From an uncultured Lachnospiraceae bacterium (GTDB lineage Bacteria > Bacillota > Clostridia > Lachnospirales > Lachnospiraceae), in NCBI GenBank assembly GCA_949283905.1, contig CASDUB010000249.1:1-14221 (forward strand): a stretch of DNA of 14,221 bases. Reading direction: 5' to 3'. The first letter of the stretch is position 1. Each line of letters begins with the position of its first letter. The notes below the pieces were generated by a model that searched no databases, was not told the origin of the DNA, and worked only from the letters and a program-made list of their open reading frames with translations. Positions 3,121 through 14,221 of the stretch are shown here, piece after piece. A program made the position numbers and the translations under genes.

Positions 3121-3159
3121 TTATTTTTGTATTTCAGATGCAAAAAAAGGAGGGTAAAA

Positions 3160-4128
3160 ATGTCACTTGTAACAACAAAAGAGATGTTTGCCAAAGCTTA
3201 TAACGGCGGATACGCTGTAGGAGCTTTCAACGTAAACAATATGGAAATCGTTCAGGGTATTACAGAAGCTGCCGGAGAACTTAAAAGCCCGGTTATCCTT
3301 CAGGTTTCAAAAGGCGCTCGTGCATACGCCAACCACAGATACCTTGTAAAAATGGTTGAAGCCGCTGTAGAAGAAAATCCGGAAATTCCGATCGCTCTTC
3401 ACCTTGATCACGGTGACAGCTTTGAACTTTGCAAATCATGTATCGACGGCGGATTTACATCTGTTATGATCGACGCTTCTTCAAAATCTTTTGAAGAAAA
3501 TATCGCTCTTACAAAACAGGTTGTAGATTATGCTCATGATCACGGCGTAGTAGTTGAGGCTGAGCTTGGAACTCTTGCCGGAGTTGAGGACGAAGTTGCA
3601 GTTGAGCACGGACAGGAAAGCTATACACGTCCTGAAGAAGTAGAAGAGTTTGTATCAAGAACAGGATGTGATTCTCTTGCAATCGCAATCGGAACATCAC
3701 ACGGTGCATATAAATTCAAAGCTTCACAGTGCACAAGAAATGAAAAAGGAATCCTTGTTCCACCTCCACTTCGTTTCGACGTTCTTGAAGAGTGCATCAA
3801 GAGACTTCCGGGATTCCCGATCGTTCTTCACGGATCATCATCAGTTCCTCAGGACTTCGTAGCAATGATCAATCAGTACGGCGGAAATATGCCGGATGCA
3901 ATCGGTATTCCTGAAGAAGAGCTTCGTCATGCTGCTGAACTTGCTGTATGCAAGATCAATATCGATTCAGATATCCGTATCGCTATGACAGCTACTATCC
4001 GTAAATATATGGCAGAGCATCCTGATCACTTTGATCCTCGTCAGTATCTTAAACCTGCACGTCAGGCTGTTAAAGATATGGTTGCTCATAAGATCCAGAA
4101 CGTTCTCGGATCTGCAGGAAAAGCCTGA
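3160..4128 (+). CDS. fba: Class II fructose-bisphosphate aldolase
   Basis: This cytoplasmic enzyme cleaves fructose 1,6-bisphosphate to glyceraldehyde 3-phosphate and dihydroxyacetone phosphate using a divalent metal, normally zinc. The protein has 322 residues from the ATG at 3160, which follows a strong AAGGAGGG ribosome binding site. A TTG 33 bases upstream is in frame but has no such site and would add an unlikely N-terminus. The start MSLVTTKEMF and the GAFNVNNMEI block (21-30) are typical. HLDHGD at 81-86 carries the catalytic aspartate and a metal-binding histidine (Asp83, His84). EAELG is at 133-137. HGAYKF (His181) and HGSSSVP (His224) supply the remaining expected metal ligands and the phosphate-binding segment. 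Leucine codons are strongly biased to CTT, consistent with high expression. The gene stands between a decarboxylase operon and a 6S RNA, with its own promoter-like region. Confidence 0.96.
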   Translation: MSLVTTKEMFAKAYNGGYAVGAFNVNNMEIVQGITEAAGELKSPVILQVSKGARAYANHRYLVKMVEAAVEENPEIPIALHLDHGDSFELCKSCIDGGFTSVMIDASSKSFEENIALTKQVVDYAHDHGVVVEAELGTLAGVEDEVAVEHGQESYTRPEEVEEFVSRTGCDSLAIAIGTSHGAYKFKASQCTRNEKGILVPPPLRFDVLEECIKRLPGFPIVLHGSSSVPQDFVAMINQYGGNMPDAIGIPEEELRHAAELAVCKINIDSDIRIAMTATIRKYMAEHPDHFDPRQYLKPARQAVKDMVAHKIQNVLGSAGKA

Positions 4129-4540: not shown

Positions 4541-5575
4541 GTGATTAACAACGAGATCAAAACAAAGCTTGACAGTATCCTTGATAAAGCACAGGAAAGC
4601 ATCAAAGCAGCTAAAGACATGGATATAATTAATGAGATCCGTGTAAAAGTTCTTGGAAAAAAAGGAGAACTTACGGCTGTTCTCAAGGGTATGAAGGATG
4701 TCGCGCCTGAAGACAGGCCGGCAGTCGGACAGCTTGTAAACGATACAAGAACAAAAATAGAATCAGCCCTCGAGACAGTAAAGACACGCCTTGAAAAAGC
4801 TCAGATGGAGGCTCGTCTTGCTGCTGAAAAAATAGACGTAACGCTTCCGGCTAAAAAATACAATATCGGACACAGTCATCCGAATACGATCGCTCTTGAA
4901 GAAGTTGAGCGTATTTTCATCGGAATGGGATACGAAGTAGTAGAAGGTCCTGAAATAGAATATGATCTCTACAATTTCGAAAAACTCAATATTCCGGCAA
5001 ATCACCCTGCAAAAGATGAGCAGGATACATTTTATATTAATTCAGACATCGTACTTCGTACGCAGACTTCGCCTGCCCAGGCGCGTGAAATGGAAAAAGG
5101 AAAACTTCCTATCCGTATGATCTCACCGGGACGAGTATTCCGTTCTGACGAGGTGGATGCTACACATTCGCCTTCATTCCATCAGATAGAAGGACTTGTA
5201 GTAGACGAACATATTACATTTGCGGATCTTAAGGGAACTCTTCAGGAGTTTGCTCGCGAATTGTTCGGACCTGAAACAAAGACTAAATTCCGTCCTCATC
5301 ATTTCCCGTTTACAGAGCCGTCTGCCGAGATGGACGTAAGCTGTTTTAAATGCGGCGGAAAAGGATGCCGTTTCTGCAAAGGCGAAGGATGGATCGAAAT
5401 CCTCGGATGCGGTATGGTTCACCCTCATGTATTTGAAATGTGCGGAATCGACCCTGAGAAGTATACAGGTTTTGCTTTCGGCGTCGGACTTGAGAGAATC
5501 GCTCTCTTAAAATATGAGATAGACGACATGCGTCTTCTTTACGAAAACGACATCAGATTCTTAAATCAGTTCTGA
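4541..5575 (+). CDS. pheS: Phenylalanyl-tRNA synthetase alpha subunit
   Basis: This is the catalytic subunit of the (alpha-beta)2 cytoplasmic enzyme that charges tRNA-Phe with phenylalanine. The 344 residues start with an N-terminal coiled-coil arm (about 1-95) that contacts tRNA, followed by the class II synthetase core. HSHPNTIALEEVERIF lies at 111-126. Motif 2, GRVFRSDEVDATHSPSFHQ, is at 197-215. Motif 3, GFAFGVGLERIALL, is at 310-323. A CxxC-x4-CxxC cluster (Cys268, 271, 276, 279) forms a knuckle-like insert that also occurs in other Firmicute PheS proteins; metal binding is inferred, not shown. The start is a GTG placed 7 bases after GGAGG (4529-4533), and no better ATG is present. pheT follows after 38 bases. 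Confidence 0.97.
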   Translation: MINNEIKTKLDSILDKAQESIKAAKDMDIINEIRVKVLGKKGELTAVLKGMKDVAPEDRPAVGQLVNDTRTKIESALETVKTRLEKAQMEARLAAEKIDVTLPAKKYNIGHSHPNTIALEEVERIFIGMGYEVVEGPEIEYDLYNFEKLNIPANHPAKDEQDTFYINSDIVLRTQTSPAQAREMEKGKLPIRMISPGRVFRSDEVDATHSPSFHQIEGLVVDEHITFADLKGTLQEFARELFGPETKTKFRPHHFPFTEPSAEMDVSCFKCGGKGCRFCKGEGWIEILGCGMVHPHVFEMCGIDPEKYTGFAFGVGLERIALLKYEIDDMRLLYENDIRFLNQF

Positions 5576-8716: not shown

Positions 8717-9742
8717 ATGAAAACAAGTGATTTTTATTATGATCTTCCCGAAGAACTTATTGCACAGGATCCTCTTCTTGACAGGAGTTCTTCAAGGCTT
8801 CTTCATCTTGACAAAAAAGACGGAAGCATTGAACATACGGTATTTAAAAAAGTAACTGAATATTTAAATCCGGGCGACTGTCTTGTTATCAATAATACAA
8901 AAGTTCTTCCTGCAAGACTTTACGGAGAAAAAGAGGATACGCATGCTCTGATCGAAATTCTTTTACTTAAGAGACATTCGGCTGACGTATGGGAAGTTCT
9001 TGTAAGACCGGGCAAAAAGTGCAGACGGGGAGCACGTATTATATTCGGAGACGGTCTTCTTAAAGGTGAGATCACTGATATAGTCGAAGAGGGAAACAGA
9101 CTTATCAGATTTGAATTTGACGGTATCTTCGAAGAAATACTTGACCGCCTCGGAGAAATGCCTCTTCCGCCTTATATTACTCATAAGCTTCAGGATAAAA
9201 ACAGATATCAGACGGTTTATGCAAAGGAAGCAGGATCAGCGGCGGCGCCGACTGCAGGACTTCATTTTACAAATGAGCTGCTGGATGAGATAAAGGCTAA
9301 AGGTGTCAATATTGCTCATGTGACATTGCATGTAGGACTCGGAACATTCAGACCTGTTAAGGTCGATGATGTCACTCAGCACCATATGCATTCCGAGTTT
9401 TACGTAGTAGAAGAGGAACAGGCAAAACTTATAAACGATACGAAGAAAAACGGCGGCAGAGTTATCTGTGTCGGCACAACAAGCTGCAGGACGCTTGAAT
9501 CTGCCGCTGAAGAAAACGGCGTCTTAAGATCAGGGAGCGGATGGACAGATATATTTATTTATCCGGGCTATAAATTCAAGATAATGGATGCTCTTATTAC
9601 AAATTTCCATCTGCCGGAATCGACACTGATCATGCTTGTATCGGCCTTTGCGGGAAAAGATAAAGTGATGCATGCATATGAAGAAGCAGTCAAAGAGCGA
9701 TACAGATTTTTTTCCTTCGGCGACGCAATGATAATCATTTGA
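8717..9742 (+). CDS. queA: S-adenosylmethionine:tRNA ribosyltransferase-isomerase QueA
   Basis: This enzyme transfers and isomerises the ribosyl group of S-adenosylmethionine onto preQ1-modified tRNA, forming epoxyqueuosine in the wobble position of GUN anticodons. The 341 residues match the family length. Diagnostic blocks are [15 protein letters not shown] near 6-20, [10 protein letters not shown] at 59-68, [10 protein letters not shown] at 176-185, [11 protein letters not shown] at 204-214 and [10 protein letters not shown] at 295-304. The ribosome binding site (AGGA at 8706-8709) is modest. It follows the phosphatase gene by 13 bases and is the last gene before a strong terminator. No other queuosine gene (such as tgt) is in the window. 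Confidence 0.97.
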
Positions 9743-9781
9743 GTTTTTTACAGATACGAAAAAATTGAATAGCAATTTATA

Positions 9782-9834
9782 AAGCACATAATTCTAAGTC
9801 AGTATATTACTGACAAGAGTTATGTGCTTTTTTT
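9782..9834 (+). terminator. Long two-part intrinsic terminator after queA
   Basis: AAGCACATAA (9782-9791) pairs with TTATGTGCTT (9820-9829), which leads into a run of seven T (9828-9834). Within it, TTCT can pair with AGAG (one T-G), and GTCAGTA (9798-9804) pairs perfectly with TACTGAC (9808-9814) around a TAT loop. Together this gives an almost continuous stem of about 21 bp. It closes the pheST-phosphatase-queA transcript. Confidence 0.9.
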
Positions 9835-9862
9835 AGTTTGCCTTTTTCTGTATCACTTCAAT

Positions 9863-9880
9863 GTGTTAAATCATTAACAA
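9863..9880 (+). promoter_or_regulatory. Rex-type redox operator 1
   Basis: The 18-base site reads TGTTAA-ATCA-TTAACA plus flanking bases. It matches the Rex consensus known from Clostridia and Bacilli (TTGTTAA-N4-TTAACAA) at 13 of its 14 defined positions. Rex represses fermentative and hydrogenase genes and releases DNA when NADH is high. It lies about 280 bases upstream of the hydrogenase operon, and Rex control of such hydrogenases is known in other Clostridia. No rex gene is in the window. Confidence 0.72.
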
Positions 9881-9885
9881 TACAT

Positions 9886-9903
9886 ATGTTAAATATATAA
9901 CAA
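9886..9903 (+). promoter_or_regulatory. Rex-like operator 2 and nearby half-site
   Basis: TGTTAA-ATAT-ATAACA with trailing A matches 12 of the 14 defined Rex consensus positions, with one mismatch in each half. Its centre is 23 bases (about two helical turns) from operator 1. A further half-site, TTAACA (9908-9913), makes an 8-base inverted repeat between ATGTTAAA (9886-9893) and TTTAACAT (9907-9914), so the region holds a small cluster of Rex-like half-sites. Confidence 0.5.
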
Positions 9904-9951
9904 GCCTTTAACATATATAAATATGATATGACAGATTATCGTAATGTAATA

Positions 9952-9981
9952 TTATGCAAGCATTAAAGTTTTATGTATAAT
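9952..9981 (+). promoter_or_regulatory. Probable promoter of the hydrogenase operon
   Basis: An exact TATAAT -10 box lies at 9976-9981. The best -35 candidate is the weak TTATGC (9952-9957) at 18-base spacing. The predicted start, near 9988, falls a few bases before the structured leader that begins at 9993, which supports the assignment. The weak -35 suggests help from an activator, or a different promoter nearer the Rex-like sites (for example TATGAT at 9922-9927). Confidence 0.5.
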
Positions 9982-9992
9982 AGAATCGAAGA

Positions 9993-10119
9993 TAACTGCT
10001 GTGAAAACGCTTCATTTTTCTAAAATTTTTATGCTGCCGGCACAATGCTCAAATGCGTTATACAACATAAAAATCATATTAATAATGAAGCTTGAATTTA
10101 GAGTAAAGATCAGCAGTTA
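9993..10119 (+). ncRNA. Candidate structured leader RNA upstream of the hydrogenase operon
   Basis: Three nested long-range complementary pairs fold this 127-nt leader into one long arm. P1 is TAACTGCTG (9993-10001) with CAGCAGTTA (10111-10119). P2 is GCTTCATT (10009-10016) with AATGAAGC (10084-10091). P3 is ATTTTTATG (10025-10033) with CATAAAAAT (10066-10074). All pairs are Watson-Crick. Asymmetric internal loops separate the stems, and the 32-nt apical region (10034-10065) is less AT-rich and includes the palindrome TGCCGGCA. P1 ends about 12 nt before the hndA ribosome binding site (AAGGAAG, 10132-10138), and the arm starts about 5 nt after the predicted transcription start. It matches no riboswitch consensus I recognise. 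It could be a new regulatory leader or only a stabilising 5' structure. Confidence 0.5.
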
Positions 10120-10145
10120 AATAAGAGTAGAAAGGAAGTATATTT

Positions 10146-10634
10146 ATGAGCTGCACAAACTTTCCATGTTACGGAACGCTGGAACAGGGAACGGAATTAA
10201 TGAACTGGCTTGAAGCGAATAAGGACATGCCGGGAATAGTTCTTCCCGCCCTTCAAAAGGCACAGGAAATCTACGGATATGTTCCGCGTCCCGTACAGCA
10301 GATAATTGCTGATTTTGCGCATAAGCCGCTTTCAGAAGTATACGGAGTAGCAACGTTTTATTCACAGTTTAACCTTGAGCCGAAGGGCAGAAACCAGATC
10401 AGCGTATGTCTCGGAACCGCCTGCTATATCAAAGGCAGCGGAAAGATCTTACAGATGCTCCAGGAAAAACTCAATGTAAACGAATCAGGAGTAACGGAAG
10501 ACGGACGTTTCAGTGTCGATTCATGCAGATGTCTCGGATGCTGCGGAATGGCTCCCGTTATGAAAGTAAATGATGATGTGTACGGAAATCTGTCAGGAGA
10601 AGAGCTCGATGCGATTCTCGCTAAATACGAATAA
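10146..10634 (+). CDS. hndA: NuoE-like [2Fe-2S] subunit of NAD(P)-linked [FeFe]-hydrogenase (HndA/HydC type)
   Basis: This 162-residue soluble electron-transfer subunit of a multimeric [FeFe]-hydrogenase has the NuoE fold: a helical N-terminal part (about 10-80, with LQKAQEIYGYVP and VYGVATFYSQF) and a thioredoxin-like [2Fe-2S] domain. The cluster ligands are visible as C-x4-C in CLGTACY (Cys88, Cys93) and C-x3-C in CLGCC (Cys129, Cys133). Length and motifs match HndA of Desulfovibrio and HydC of bifurcating hydrogenases. A complex I role is unlikely because the following genes encode a NuoF-like flavoprotein and an [FeFe]-hydrogenase. An AAGGAAG site at 10132-10138 supports the ATG. Its TAA stop is embedded in the next gene's ribosome binding site. 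Confidence 0.94.
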   Translation: MSCTNFPCYGTLEQGTELMNWLEANKDMPGIVLPALQKAQEIYGYVPRPVQQIIADFAHKPLSEVYGVATFYSQFNLEPKGRNQISVCLGTACYIKGSGKILQMLQEKLNVNESGVTEDGRFSVDSCRCLGCCGMAPVMKVNDDVYGNLSGEELDAILAKYE

Positions 10635-10649
10635 GGAGGAGACTGATAT

Positions 10650-11036
10650 ATGGGAAATAAAGTTACAAAGATACAGTCCCTTGCCGAACTGAACAAGATC
10701 AAAGAAGAAGAGAACAGACGAATGAGCATTCAGGATGGCGTAAGAATTGTTGTCGGACTTGGAACATGCGGAGTAGCTGCAGGAGCACAGCCTGTATATG
10801 ATGCGATAGCGGCATATATTAAAGAGAACGGAATGCAGGAAAGAGTACTCCTTGAGGAAACAGGATGCGTAGGAATCTGCCAGTATGAACCTGTTGTGGA
10901 AGTATATGAACCTAATATCCGCACAACATATGTTCATATGACAGTTGAAAGCGCAATCCGTGTAATGAAACAGCATATCCAGGGCGGAAATCCGATTGCA
11001 GAGTTTACCATCGGATCATCGAAAAACAGGAGGTGA
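10650..11036 (+). CDS. hndB: HndB-like thioredoxin-fold [2Fe-2S] ferredoxin domain protein
   Basis: This 128-residue small subunit sits between the NuoE-like and NuoF-like genes, exactly where HndB lies in HndABCD operons. The N-terminal 25 residues are charged and probably helical. The rest resembles a thioredoxin-like [2Fe-2S] domain, with VGLGTCGVAAGA (33-44) and EETGCVGICQYEP (69-81). Only Cys40, Cys73 and Cys77 are at cluster positions. The residue expected to be the second ligand of the first pair (about 45) is Gly, so binding of a standard four-cysteine cluster is uncertain. I recall the same GTCG-AAGA pattern from other HndB proteins, so this is probably a family trait and not damage. 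TAAGGAGGAG at 10632-10641 gives a strong ribosome binding site overlapping the previous stop. Confidence 0.88.
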   Translation: MGNKVTKIQSLAELNKIKEEENRRMSIQDGVRIVVGLGTCGVAAGAQPVYDAIAAYIKENGMQERVLLEETGCVGICQYEPVVEVYEPNIRTTYVHMTVESAIRVMKQHIQGGNPIAEFTIGSSKNRR

Positions 11037-11037
11037 T
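11028..11037 (+). promoter_or_regulatory. Near-perfect ribosome binding site of hndC containing the hndB stop codon
   Basis: AGGAGGTGAT is complementary to the 16S rRNA 3' end over ten bases and contains the hndB TGA stop (11034-11036). It lies 5 bases before the hndC ATG, which implies tight translational coupling between the two genes. Confidence 0.85.
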
Positions 11038-11042
11038 AGTGT

Positions 11043-12842
11043 ATGTATCGTAGTTATGTAATGATATGCGGAAGCGAAAACTGTTCTTCGATCCCCGGAC
11101 ACGATCAGCTTTACAATGAGTTCCAGAATCAGATCAAAGCTGCCGGACTTACAGATGAAGTTATGGTTATTACAGGCAGCTGTCTCGGAATATGTCATGA
11201 AGGCGTAGGCCCAAACGTAGCTGTTTTCCCTGAGGGATCTATATATACAGGAGTTAAAGTAGAGGATGTAGCGGAGATCGTTTATGAACATCTTCTTAAA
11301 GATAACCGTGTCACACGTCTCCTCTTTGATGAAACAGTAACAGTAGGAAACGCAAGAAGCATCGAAGATACCGAATTCTATAGAAAACAGTGCAGGATCG
11401 CCATGCGCAATTGCGGTATTATCGATCCTAAAAATATAAATGAATATATAGCTAAAGACGGATATCAGGCTCTGTATAAAGCTCTTACTGAGATGACGCC
11501 TGATGAAGTAATAGATGTAGTGCTGGCATCAGGACTCAGAGGCCGAGGCGGCGCAGGTTTCCCTACCGGAAGAAAATGGAAATTTGCCAGCGGAAACAGA
11601 GGAAAAGTTCAGAAATATGTATGCTGTAACGCAGATGAAGGAGATCCGGGAGCATTCATGGACAGAAGCGTTCTGGAAGGAGATCCTCACAGCGTTATCG
11701 AAGCTATGGCTATCGCTGCGTATGCGATCGGATCAGATCACGGATATATTTATGTACGTGCCGAATATCCCGAAGCTGTAGAGCATCTTGAAATCGCTAT
11801 CGGACAGGCTAAAGAGTACGGACTGCTTGGAAAAAATATCTTCGGAACAGATTTCAACTTTGAACTTGAGATCAAACTTGGAGCCGGCGCATTTGTATGC
11901 GGCGAGGAAACAGCGCTTATGACTTCAATAGAAGGAAAACGAGGAGAACCTCGTCCGAGACCTCCATTCCCGGCTTCAAAAGGTCTTTTTGCAGTTCCTA
12001 CAATATTGAACAACGTTGAGACATATGCAAATATTGCTCCTATTATTTTAAAGGGCGCTGAATGGTTCTCGTCTATCGGCGTACCTTCAAGTACAGGAAC
12101 GAAAGTATTTGCTCTCGGCGGAAAGATCAGAAATACAGGTCTTGTGGAAGTTCCGATGGGAACGACCCTCAGAACTATCGTTGAGGATATCGGCGGAGGT
12201 ATTCCTAACGGACGTTCATTTAAAGCTGCGCAGACAGGCGGACCTTCCGGCGGATGTATACCTGCAAGTCTTATCGATACTCCTGTCGATTTTGACTCTC
12301 TTTCGAAGATCGGCGCAATGATGGGTTCCGGCGGACTTATCGTTATGGATGATTCAACCTGTATGGTAGATATAGCGAAATTCTTCCTTGAATTTATCGT
12401 TGAAGAAAGCTGCGGAAAATGTACTCCGTGCCGTGTCGGCACAAAACGTCTTCTTGAGCTTCTGACAAAGATAACGGACGGAAGAGGTACAATGGAAGAT
12501 TTGAACCGCATCGAAGAGCTTGCTTCATTTATGAAAGATAACAGTCTTTGCGCTCTCGGACAGACGGCGGCAAATCCGGTTCTTTCTACAATAAAATATT
12601 TCAGAGATGAATATATTGAGCATATTGAGAATAAACATTGTCCTGCAGGCGTATGTAAGAATCTTCTCACATATCATATAGATCCGAAACTTTGCAGAGG
12701 CTGTACGGCGTGTGCAAAAGCATGTCCTGTACACGCAATCGTTGGAACTGTTAAGAATCCTCATGCGATTGATACTACAAAATGTATCAAGTGTGGAAGC
12801 TGCATTGAAAAATGCCGTTTCGGTGCAATAGAGAGAAAGTAA
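11043..12842 (+). CDS. hndC: NuoF-like flavoprotein subunit of NAD(P)-linked [FeFe]-hydrogenase (HndC/HydB type)
   Basis: This 599-residue subunit carries the FMN and NAD(P)H site of the hydrogenase. An N-terminal thioredoxin-like [2Fe-2S] domain has Cys9, Cys14, Cys47 and Cys51. The NuoF core follows. GLRGRGGAGFPTG (164-176) is the nucleotide-binding glycine-rich loop, and NADEGDPGAFMDR (196-208) is the FMN-binding segment. An SLBB domain comes next, then the N3-type [4Fe-4S] site ESCGKCTPC (Cys457, 460, 463) with Cys503. The C-terminus adds a two-cluster ferredoxin domain (Cys551/554/557/561 and Cys581/584/587/591) that complex I NuoF lacks, which marks it as a HydB/HndC-type subunit able to handle ferredoxin electrons. 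Length matches this group. The ribosome binding site overlaps the hndB stop, and the TAA stop begins the hndD ribosome binding site. Choice of NAD or NADP cannot be read from the motifs. Confidence 0.96.
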   Translation: MYRSYVMICGSENCSSIPGHDQLYNEFQNQIKAAGLTDEVMVITGSCLGICHEGVGPNVAVFPEGSIYTGVKVEDVAEIVYEHLLKDNRVTRLLFDETVTVGNARSIEDTEFYRKQCRIAMRNCGIIDPKNINEYIAKDGYQALYKALTEMTPDEVIDVVLASGLRGRGGAGFPTGRKWKFASGNRGKVQKYVCCNADEGDPGAFMDRSVLEGDPHSVIEAMAIAAYAIGSDHGYIYVRAEYPEAVEHLEIAIGQAKEYGLLGKNIFGTDFNFELEIKLGAGAFVCGEETALMTSIEGKRGEPRPRPPFPASKGLFAVPTILNNVETYANIAPIILKGAEWFSSIGVPSSTGTKVFALGGKIRNTGLVEVPMGTTLRTIVEDIGGGIPNGRSFKAAQTGGPSGGCIPASLIDTPVDFDSLSKIGAMMGSGGLIVMDDSTCMVDIAKFFLEFIVEESCGKCTPCRVGTKRLLELLTKITDGRGTMEDLNRIEELASFMKDNSLCALGQTAANPVLSTIKYFRDEYIEHIENKHCPAGVCKNLLTYHIDPKLCRGCTACAKACPVHAIVGTVKNPHAIDTTKCIKCGSCIEKCRFGAIERK

Positions 12843-12854
12843 GGAGGATTGATT

Positions 12855-14221
12855 ATGATCAGTAAAAAGGTGGATACCATGGATATGATAAACATCAAAA
12901 TCAACGGAATTCCTTGCCAGGCTCCTGCAGGTTCTACTATTTTGGAAGCAGCACACGCATCTGGAATCGCAATTCCGACACTTTGTTACTTAAAAGAGAT
13001 CAATGCGATCGGCGCATGCCGTATCTGCGTTGTTGAAGTAAAGGGAGCAAAAACACTTGTTCCTGCCTGTGTACATCCGATAAGTGAAGGAATGGAAATA
13101 TTCACAAACACGAAAAGAGTACACGACGCAAGAAGAACAAACTTAAAACTTATACTTTCAACACACCGTCAGGAATGTCTGTCATGCGACAGAAACGGTC
13201 ATTGTGAACTTCAGAATCTCTGTTATGAATATGCAGTAGACAGCAACATGGCTTTTGAAGGTGAAAAGATCAAATACGAGATCGATGACAGCGCGGTTCA
13301 TATGCAGAGAGACAATACAAAATGTATTATGTGCCGCAGGTGTACGGCAGTCTGCAATCTGGCTGAAGGCGTAGGATGTATAGGCGTTTCGGGAAGAGGA
13401 TTTACGGCAAAGATCGGTTCAAGCTTTGGAGAAAAACTTGCAGATTCACAGTGCATTCACTGCGGACAATGTATCGTTGCATGTCCTACGGGAGCTCTTT
13501 CCGAGAAAGATGATACATCTAAAGTCTGGGAGGCCATTGCTAATCCTGAAAAATATGTTATCGTGCAGACGGCCCCTTCTGTAAGAGCAGGTTTGGGCGA
13601 AGAGTTCATGATGAACATCGGAGAAAATGTAGAAGGAAAGATGGTTACGGCTCTTCGTATGCTCGGCTTTGACGCCGTATTTGATACGGACTGGGCAGCT
13701 GATCTTACTATAATGGAGGAGGCAACAGAACTTCTTCACCGTATACAGAACGGCGGCACAATGCCTATGTTTACAAGCTGCTGTCCGGGATGGGTTAAAT
13801 TCTGTGAGACATTTTATCCTGAATTTATTTCGAATCTTTCTACATGCAAGAGTCCGCAGAGTATGCTCGGCGCTATGGCAAAATCGTATTATGCTAAAAA
13901 GATGAATATCGATCCTAATAATATCATAGTTGTATCGGTAATGCCGTGTACGGCTAAGAAATTTGAGATCACACGCGACGATATGTCGGGTGCAGGCGAA
14001 GGACTTCGTGATGTTGATATTTCGATTACAACGAGAGAACTCAGCAAGATGATCCGCCGTGCAGGTCTTCTTTTCAACATTCTGCCTGAATCGGAATTTG
14101 ACGCTCCTCTCGGAATCGCTTCGGGAGCAGGTCATATCTTCGGAGCTTCGGGCGGCGTTATGGAAGCAGCGCTTCGTACAGCGGCTGAAGTTATTACCGG
14201 AAAGAGTCTCGGCGCGGTAGA
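12855..14221 (+). CDS. hndD: [FeFe]-hydrogenase catalytic subunit (HndD/HydA type), 3'-truncated by window edge
   Basis: The open frame runs 455 codons to the window edge without a stop. It encodes the subunit that makes or consumes H2 at the H-cluster. Accessory clusters come first. A [2Fe-2S] domain has Cys44, 55, 58 and 72. A His-Cys3 [4Fe-4S] site has His104, Cys108, 111 and 117. A two-cluster ferredoxin domain has Cys157/160/163/167 and Cys200/203/206/210. The hydrogenase domain shows motif L1, TSCCPGW (307-313; Cys309 probably for proton transfer, Cys310 as ligand), and L2, MPCTAKKFE (363-371, Cys365). The 55-residue spacing equals that in Clostridium pasteurianum CpI. The third motif lies beyond the window. 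TAAGGAGG at 12840-12847 supports this ATG; in-frame ATGs at codons 9 and 11 are alternatives. Order and subunits indicate an HndABCD-type, probably electron-bifurcating, cytoplasmic hydrogenase. Confidence 0.97.
   Translation, partial: MISKKVDTMDMINIKINGIPCQAPAGSTILEAAHASGIAIPTLCYLKEINAIGACRICVVEVKGAKTLVPACVHPISEGMEIFTNTKRVHDARRTNLKLILSTHRQECLSCDRNGHCELQNLCYEYAVDSNMAFEGEKIKYEIDDSAVHMQRDNTKCIMCRRCTAVCNLAEGVGCIGVSGRGFTAKIGSSFGEKLADSQCIHCGQCIVACPTGALSEKDDTSKVWEAIANPEKYVIVQTAPSVRAGLGEEFMMNIGENVEGKMVTALRMLGFDAVFDTDWAADLTIMEEATELLHRIQNGGTMPMFTSCCPGWVKFCETFYPEFISNLSTCKSPQSMLGAMAKSYYAKKMNIDPNNIIVVSVMPCTAKKFEITRDDMSGAGEGLRDVDISITTRELSKMIRRAGLLFNILPESEFDAPLGIASGAGHIFGASGGVMEAALRTAAEVITGKSLGAV

Follow-up and report, generated by a model that had tools for sequence, protein, structure and literature searches.

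The DNA from about position 9988 to 10154 of the window (the whole 14,221-nt stretch that was analysed) is a real conserved structured element ahead of an [FeFe]-hydrogenase operon, and it probably acts through control of translation. The reading that we prefer, still tentatively, is that this operon is under Rex control and that its structured, conserved 5' leader would set translation of the first gene, hndA, by way of two folds and may be a small lineage-specific translation switch. Its features are given here by window position, with reference to the corresponding leader of a second species of the same genus (genome G003; the window's own genome is G000):

9863..9880, + strand: Rex-like operator 1, GTGTTAAATCATTAACAA, with 1 mismatch to TTGTTAAN4TTAACAA; 17 of 18 bases identical in G003, the change lying in the consensus part
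9886..9903, + strand: Rex-like operator 2, ATGTTAAATATATAACAA, with 2 mismatches to TTGTTAAN4TTAACAA; 18 of 18 bases identical in G003
9976..9981, + strand: putative -10 box TATAAT, seen in the sequence and present in G003
9993..10001, + strand: P1 5' arm, TAACTGCTG, seen in the sequence, the fold and the G003 pairing; within the identical run 9991-10001
10009..10016, + strand: P2 5' arm, GCTTCATT, seen in the sequence; the G003 counterpart GCTAC/GTAGT is not significant
10025..10033, + strand: P3 5' arm, ATTTTTATG, seen in the sequence, the fold and the G003 pairing
10034..10065, + strand: apical loop, holding the run CTCAAATG at 10048-10055, identical in G003
10066..10074, + strand: P3 3' arm, CATAAAAAT; in G003, one pair changes on both sides (A-U to G-C) and two on one side only
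10084..10091, + strand: P2 3' arm, AATGAAGC, seen in the sequence
10111..10119, + strand: P1 3' arm, CAGCAGTTA, whose GCAGTT (10113-10118) is the strand common to both predicted folds
10113..10154, + strand: alternative start-codon hairpin, predicted in both species (10113-10118/10149-10154, 10121-10125/10143-10147 and 10127-10129/10139-10141)
10130..10138, + strand: ribosome binding site, GAAAGGAAG, forming the 9-nt loop of the alternative hairpin
10146..10634, + strand: hndA/NuoE-like subunit, 162 aa, first gene of the operon; TIGR01958, 142.1 bits against a cut-off of 142.4
10650..14219, + strand: rest of the operon (2Fe-2S ferredoxin-like, NuoF-like and group A [FeFe]-hydrogenase genes), cut by the window end

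Within the operon, the ferredoxin-like gene scored 40.1 against an NCBIfam cut-off of 195, so that its likeness is distant only, and the NuoF-like gene scored 393.7 against 389 in one NCBIfam model and 509.9 against 558.65 in another. The hydrogenase exceeded the group A cut-off (432.1 against 405.95); its best model was group A6, at 685.9 against 765, the gene being truncated. Upstream of the leader lies queA (503.6, cut-off 324), followed at about 9783-9834 by an inverted repeat and T run (AGCACATAA...TTATGTGCTTTTTTT), also present in G003, where queA transcription likely terminates; this repeat is absent from the output of the terminator scan, presumably owing to a loop above the size that the scan permits. 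Further NuoE-like copies of about 40% identity were seen at G000:C196:471-830, G000:C76:830-1192 and G003:C64:8121-8501, the last lying downstream of the hndA described here at a distance of about 8 kb, and the genus seems to carry more such operons.

Three nested pairs of arms had been proposed by the initial annotation, and each pair is a perfect reverse complement. The leader reaches 26 nested Watson-Crick pairs against a mean of 12.4 in dinucleotide shuffles of 9988-10145, where 1 of 1000 shuffles reaches 26. Its folding-energy signal varies with the boundaries chosen: z was -0.62 for the 158 nt initially delimited (48 of 200 shuffles equally low), -1.90 for 139 nt (41 of 1000) and -2.79 for 131 nt whose ends were picked after the stems were known. 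All three stems are present in the minimum-energy fold of the window leader without coding sequence, P1 being displaced once hndA coding sequence is added, and P2 is significant in the window, with 33 of 2000 shuffles as good. The leader DNA has a single match in its own genome at E <= 0.001, which speaks against a repeat or mobile element.

This hndA copy occurs in two of the seven genomes of the genus, G000 and G003, with proteins 99% identical; of the others, two carry nothing closer than copies of about 40% identity and three carry no copy, several assemblies being incomplete. The G003 leader and start codon were pieced together from contigs C109 and C64 (exact 87-nt overlap), with the whole arm inside C109. 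The two leaders align without gaps over 139 nt with 82 identities, close to the roughly 60% seen at third positions of queA, which are taken as the regional neutral level. The identical bases cluster in runs, namely GATAACTGCTG in the P1 5' arm, AATTTTT and AAAAAT in P3, CTCAAATG in the loop, and GCAGTTAAATAAGAG, which covers the P1 3' strand and beyond and begins at 10113, the first base of the alternative stem; the final 40 bases 5' of the ATG are identical at 37 positions.

Folded unaided, the G003 leader adopts P1-P2-P3, with a minimum free energy of -29.5 kcal/mol that 3 of 1000 shuffles equalled. All 18 pairs of P1 and P3 are retained there; a single pair changes on both sides, from A-U to G-C, and three change on one side, the sole variation in P1 being one U-A to U-G pair; sliding the partners by 1-3 columns as a control retained 36-50%. 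RNAalifold on the two-species alignment gave a z of -4.6 (1 of 500 column shuffles equally low), and a covariation shuffle was as good in 270 of 500 cases, a figure that is uninformative for an alignment of two rows only. P2 had no independent support in G003 (1392 of 2000 shuffles as good), and the position and GCTxC start that it shares between the species are suggestive only. The initial annotation had expected a functional element to keep its stems in homologous leaders and, as judged from the two sequences, P1 and P3 are conserved across both species with pair-preserving changes.

By eye, the loop CTCAAAT of the window looked able to form a pseudoknot with the 3' internal loop; in G003 no counterpart was visible by eye, and the idea was set aside. 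Leader-peptide attenuation was not supported: an ATG at leader position 65 is common to both leaders, but the encoded peptides, MRYTT and MRYNVQKFKDGVVG, differ in length and sequence. By eye, this ATG has no purine-rich ribosome binding site upstream, and the remaining ATGs of the window leader have no counterparts in G003.

Translational riboswitches and bistable leaders use a shared strand. The leader resembles them in that 10113-10118 is predicted to pair either in the closing helix or with the translation start, with states near in energy, and differs from them in that no ligand is known and no broad conservation or Rfam match was found. In the alternative fold, GCAGTT of the P1 3' arm would pair with AGCTGC of hndA codons 2-3, and the next helix would join AUAAG to UUUAU (4 pairs in G003, not 5), covering the first two bases of the AUG. 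The stability of this hairpin was equalled by 11 of 1000 shuffles for the window and 1 of 1000 for G003, both copies being nearly identical here; its conservation gives no independent support, since the stretch is nearly identical in both species and spans codons as well as the ribosome binding site. When coding sequence is left out, the probability of P1 is 0.99 in the window and 0.97 in G003; with 40 nt of coding sequence these values become 0.02 and 0.20, and the alternative hairpin takes 0.94 and 0.76, respectively. Constrained ensembles favour the alternative hairpin by 2.4 (window) and 1.1 (G003) kcal/mol, and the P1 fold and the start-codon hairpin are computed to be mutually exclusive in both species, an arrangement that 9 of 400 shuffled leaders show as well. 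The near-invariance of both P1 arms would follow from one strand having two partners.

We favour, tentatively as stated, a translational leader with two folds; Rex would act on the upstream DNA to set transcription and do the redox sensing. On the messenger, an ON fold would have P1 closing the P1-P3 arm with the start codon free, and in an OFF fold the P1 3' strand, once released, would pair with hndA codons 2-3 and bury the AUG. Transcription finishes P1 before it reaches the start codon, so each new messenger would start out ON and drift to OFF unless it were held ON by ribosomes or a bound factor; the likeliest regulators would be the order of synthesis, ribosome traffic, or a factor on the conserved arm and loop. 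That both folds form in the cell, that their balance is regulated and that a signal lies behind this regulation, we infer. Were this reading true, the hydrogenase operon would be under two-level control, by Rex at the DNA and by a leader with two states in the messenger, and this leader would be a young element caught in one genus, informative on how such switches arise; a reporter could test it directly, thanks to its helix arms and the one strand that both folds share.

Control at the level of translation had been raised by the initial annotation, and the anatomy of the predicted start-codon hairpin points there. The absence of a terminator was borne out, with no terminator-like site in 9700-10200 by a scan that admits loops of 3-8 only, which leaves a transcription attenuator unsupported. 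The switch first proposed fared less well: ATAAC and GTTAT are complementary in the window at 9992-9996 and 10057-10061, but their pairing has a probability of 0.0 in both species, and G003 reads GATAT. An RNA thermometer was not supported either, the modelled start hairpin weakening only partly between 25 and 50 C (0.95 to 0.83 in the window, 0.83 to 0.60 in G003). PMC6239172 proposes that structured long 5'-UTRs in Acetobacterium bakii control genes of acetogenesis and energy metabolism, in a cluster that includes a bifurcating hydrogenase. The likeness to those 5'-UTRs lies in structured long leaders of energy-metabolism genes, and they are tied there to low temperature, unlike the partly weakening hairpin modelled here.

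A passive 5' hairpin is a possible, if somewhat unlikely, alternative: placed near the presumed 5' end, the arm would shield the messenger from 5'-end-dependent decay or free the ribosome binding site, with no switching. If transcription starts at 9988, as presumed from the TATAAT box, P1 would follow about 5 nt later; the computed ensembles leave the ribosome binding site mostly unpaired (means 0.73-0.99), and P3 is predicted at 0.91 or above in both species even with coding sequence included, all of which such a hairpin accommodates. By itself, however, it leaves unexplained the near-invariant P1 arms, the conserved apical CTCAAATG and the competition of the start region with P1.

That AT-rich intergenic DNA happens to carry complementary arms with no RNA function, its conserved stretches being promoter and ribosome binding site, we consider unlikely. 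The low z of the interval first delimited and the lack of support for P2 in G003 agree with chance, as does the finding that, among shuffled leaders placed before the same start region, the AUG was paired in 108 of 400 and the whole two-state anatomy, a long-range helix displaced by the start region with the AUG paired, arose in 9 of 400. Against it stand the nested pairing and the two-species consensus energy, each matched by a single shuffle in the tests above, and the fact that every variable P1 or P3 pair remains paired.

We then consider how widely the leader occurs, using a covariance model, R1, built from the window and G003 leaders. R1 matched two of the seven genus genomes, G000 and G003 (E about 1e-31). 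Among 299 family genomes the window's own match alone was convincing, five others having best E values of 0.01-0.14, and among 392 order genomes, a sample overlapping that of the family, the window's own was the only match at E <= 0.001; both scans ran with stricter filters able to miss weak matches. In the five genomes behind the nearest loci no match was found at E <= 0.1, and across 121 sources good matches were confined to the window itself and, in G003, to loci L003 and L167. Weak matches occurred in G027, G064, G212, G272, G002 and G003:C202, most of them truncated or with arms broken or deleted, and at E 0.08-1.4 in L100, L008, L131, L164, L020 and L019. The best full-length weak match, G064:C36 (L171), retains most of the P1 pairing and has a 3' flank like that of the leader; it was taken as chance because it lies antisense within a 132-aa ORF and has a different fold. 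As a separate observation, L171:1501-1632 folds strongly (z -5.39, 0 of 200 shuffles equally low), antisense inside a short ORF.

By BLAST against 397 family genomes, the leader gave short matches besides itself among the matches listed, the best at E 3.2e-4 over 24 nt; this result carries little weight, G003 being absent among the matches listed, and even a longer query, run by BLAST against G003, aligned the leader only in part. The leaders at L061 and L063, whose HndA proteins are 77-79% identical, differ in sequence from this one, and both fold with the AUG mostly paired, which is not evidence of homology. In L061 and L062, the hndA gene, 77% identical in protein, is preceded by a long leader that is rich in GC and in hairpins and unrelated in sequence. 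We found no print report of this leader in the open-access literature.

This distribution bears on the idea of a new, narrow class of metabolite or cofactor riboswitch, with P1-P3 and the loop as putative aptamer and the start hairpin as expression platform, which we regard as quite improbable. Its genus-restricted form, in which the closed P1-P3 arm would bind a putative hydrogenase-related cofactor or redox metabolite, free the hndA start and add to Rex, we hold to be just as doubtful. An arm that is closed and carries a conserved apical run of 8 bases, a shared switching strand and states 1-2.4 kcal/mol apart are what such an RNA would offer. The leader also fits no known Rfam family, in keeping with the initial remark that it could not be matched to the consensus of FMN, TPP, SAM, THF, Moco, preQ1 or cyclic-dinucleotide riboswitches: none of the 4227 families reached its gathering score, relaxed searches of both leaders gave sub-threshold matches only, and the leaders of L003, L061 and L063 yielded nothing above cut-offs. 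The element occurs, however, in two species only, and conserved unpaired sequence is scant. On the sequences compared, the leader does not appear to hold an aptamer conserved across related organisms, one mark of a riboswitch, and the broad RNA class first envisaged gives way to an element of two species in one genus.

Redox control of the operon is more readily placed on DNA. The TATAAT box was confirmed at 9976-9981, and a promoter scan returned no -35/-10 pair using it. Further upstream, two Rex-like sites with at most 2 mismatches were matched by 0 of 3000 shuffles of intergenic 9743-9988; they end 95 and 72 bp 5' of TATAAT and start 283 and 260 bp 5' of the start codon. The window genome has a Rex-domain gene at G000:C228 (PF06971, 84.3 bits, cut-off 27; only the N-terminal domain was searched). 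Across hndA loci, which include close relatives, a Rex-like site was present in 16 of 102 at up to 2 mismatches (6 of 1020 mononucleotide shuffles) and in 46 of 102 at up to 3 mismatches (69 of 1020), the count taking in 102 of 108 loci, with L091 and L135 omitted and four more having short upstream DNA or no start. PMC5886521 predicts a Rex site, TTGTTAATAAATTAACTA, ahead of hfsABCD, with further sites ahead of hydG and of ech; the motif found here is similar to sites given there, and it lies beyond the 200 bp limit that the paper applied.

As in the Rex regulon of fermenting Firmicutes, the operator motif stands 5' of hydrogenase genes and a rex gene is present, so that by sequence the operon appears to qualify for this regulon, with a predicted operator upstream and a Rex-domain gene in the genome. 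Rex works on DNA, and the leader is a separate element. With two Rex-like operators upstream and a Rex-domain gene, redox control needs no RNA sensor, and the RNA redox sensor put forward initially is displaced by this simpler explanation; most simply, redox control would be Rex's, although the predicted operators are unusually far upstream. That the leader itself is a DNA-level element, either bound by a protein or belonging to the Rex control region, its inverted repeats being the binding sites, is very improbable in spite of the two upstream operators: a scan with up to 3 mismatches found the Rex consensus at those two sites only and not in the leader arms, and arms so far apart are, to our knowledge, unlike familiar operators.

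Searched as a whole against Rfam, the window contains 6S RNA only (RF00013, 4169-4353, + strand, 61.7 bits against a cut-off of 46.4). It is flanked by what we take, from names given by eye, to be an aldolase-like ORF at 3127-4128 and a GTG-started ORF at 4541 resembling pheS.
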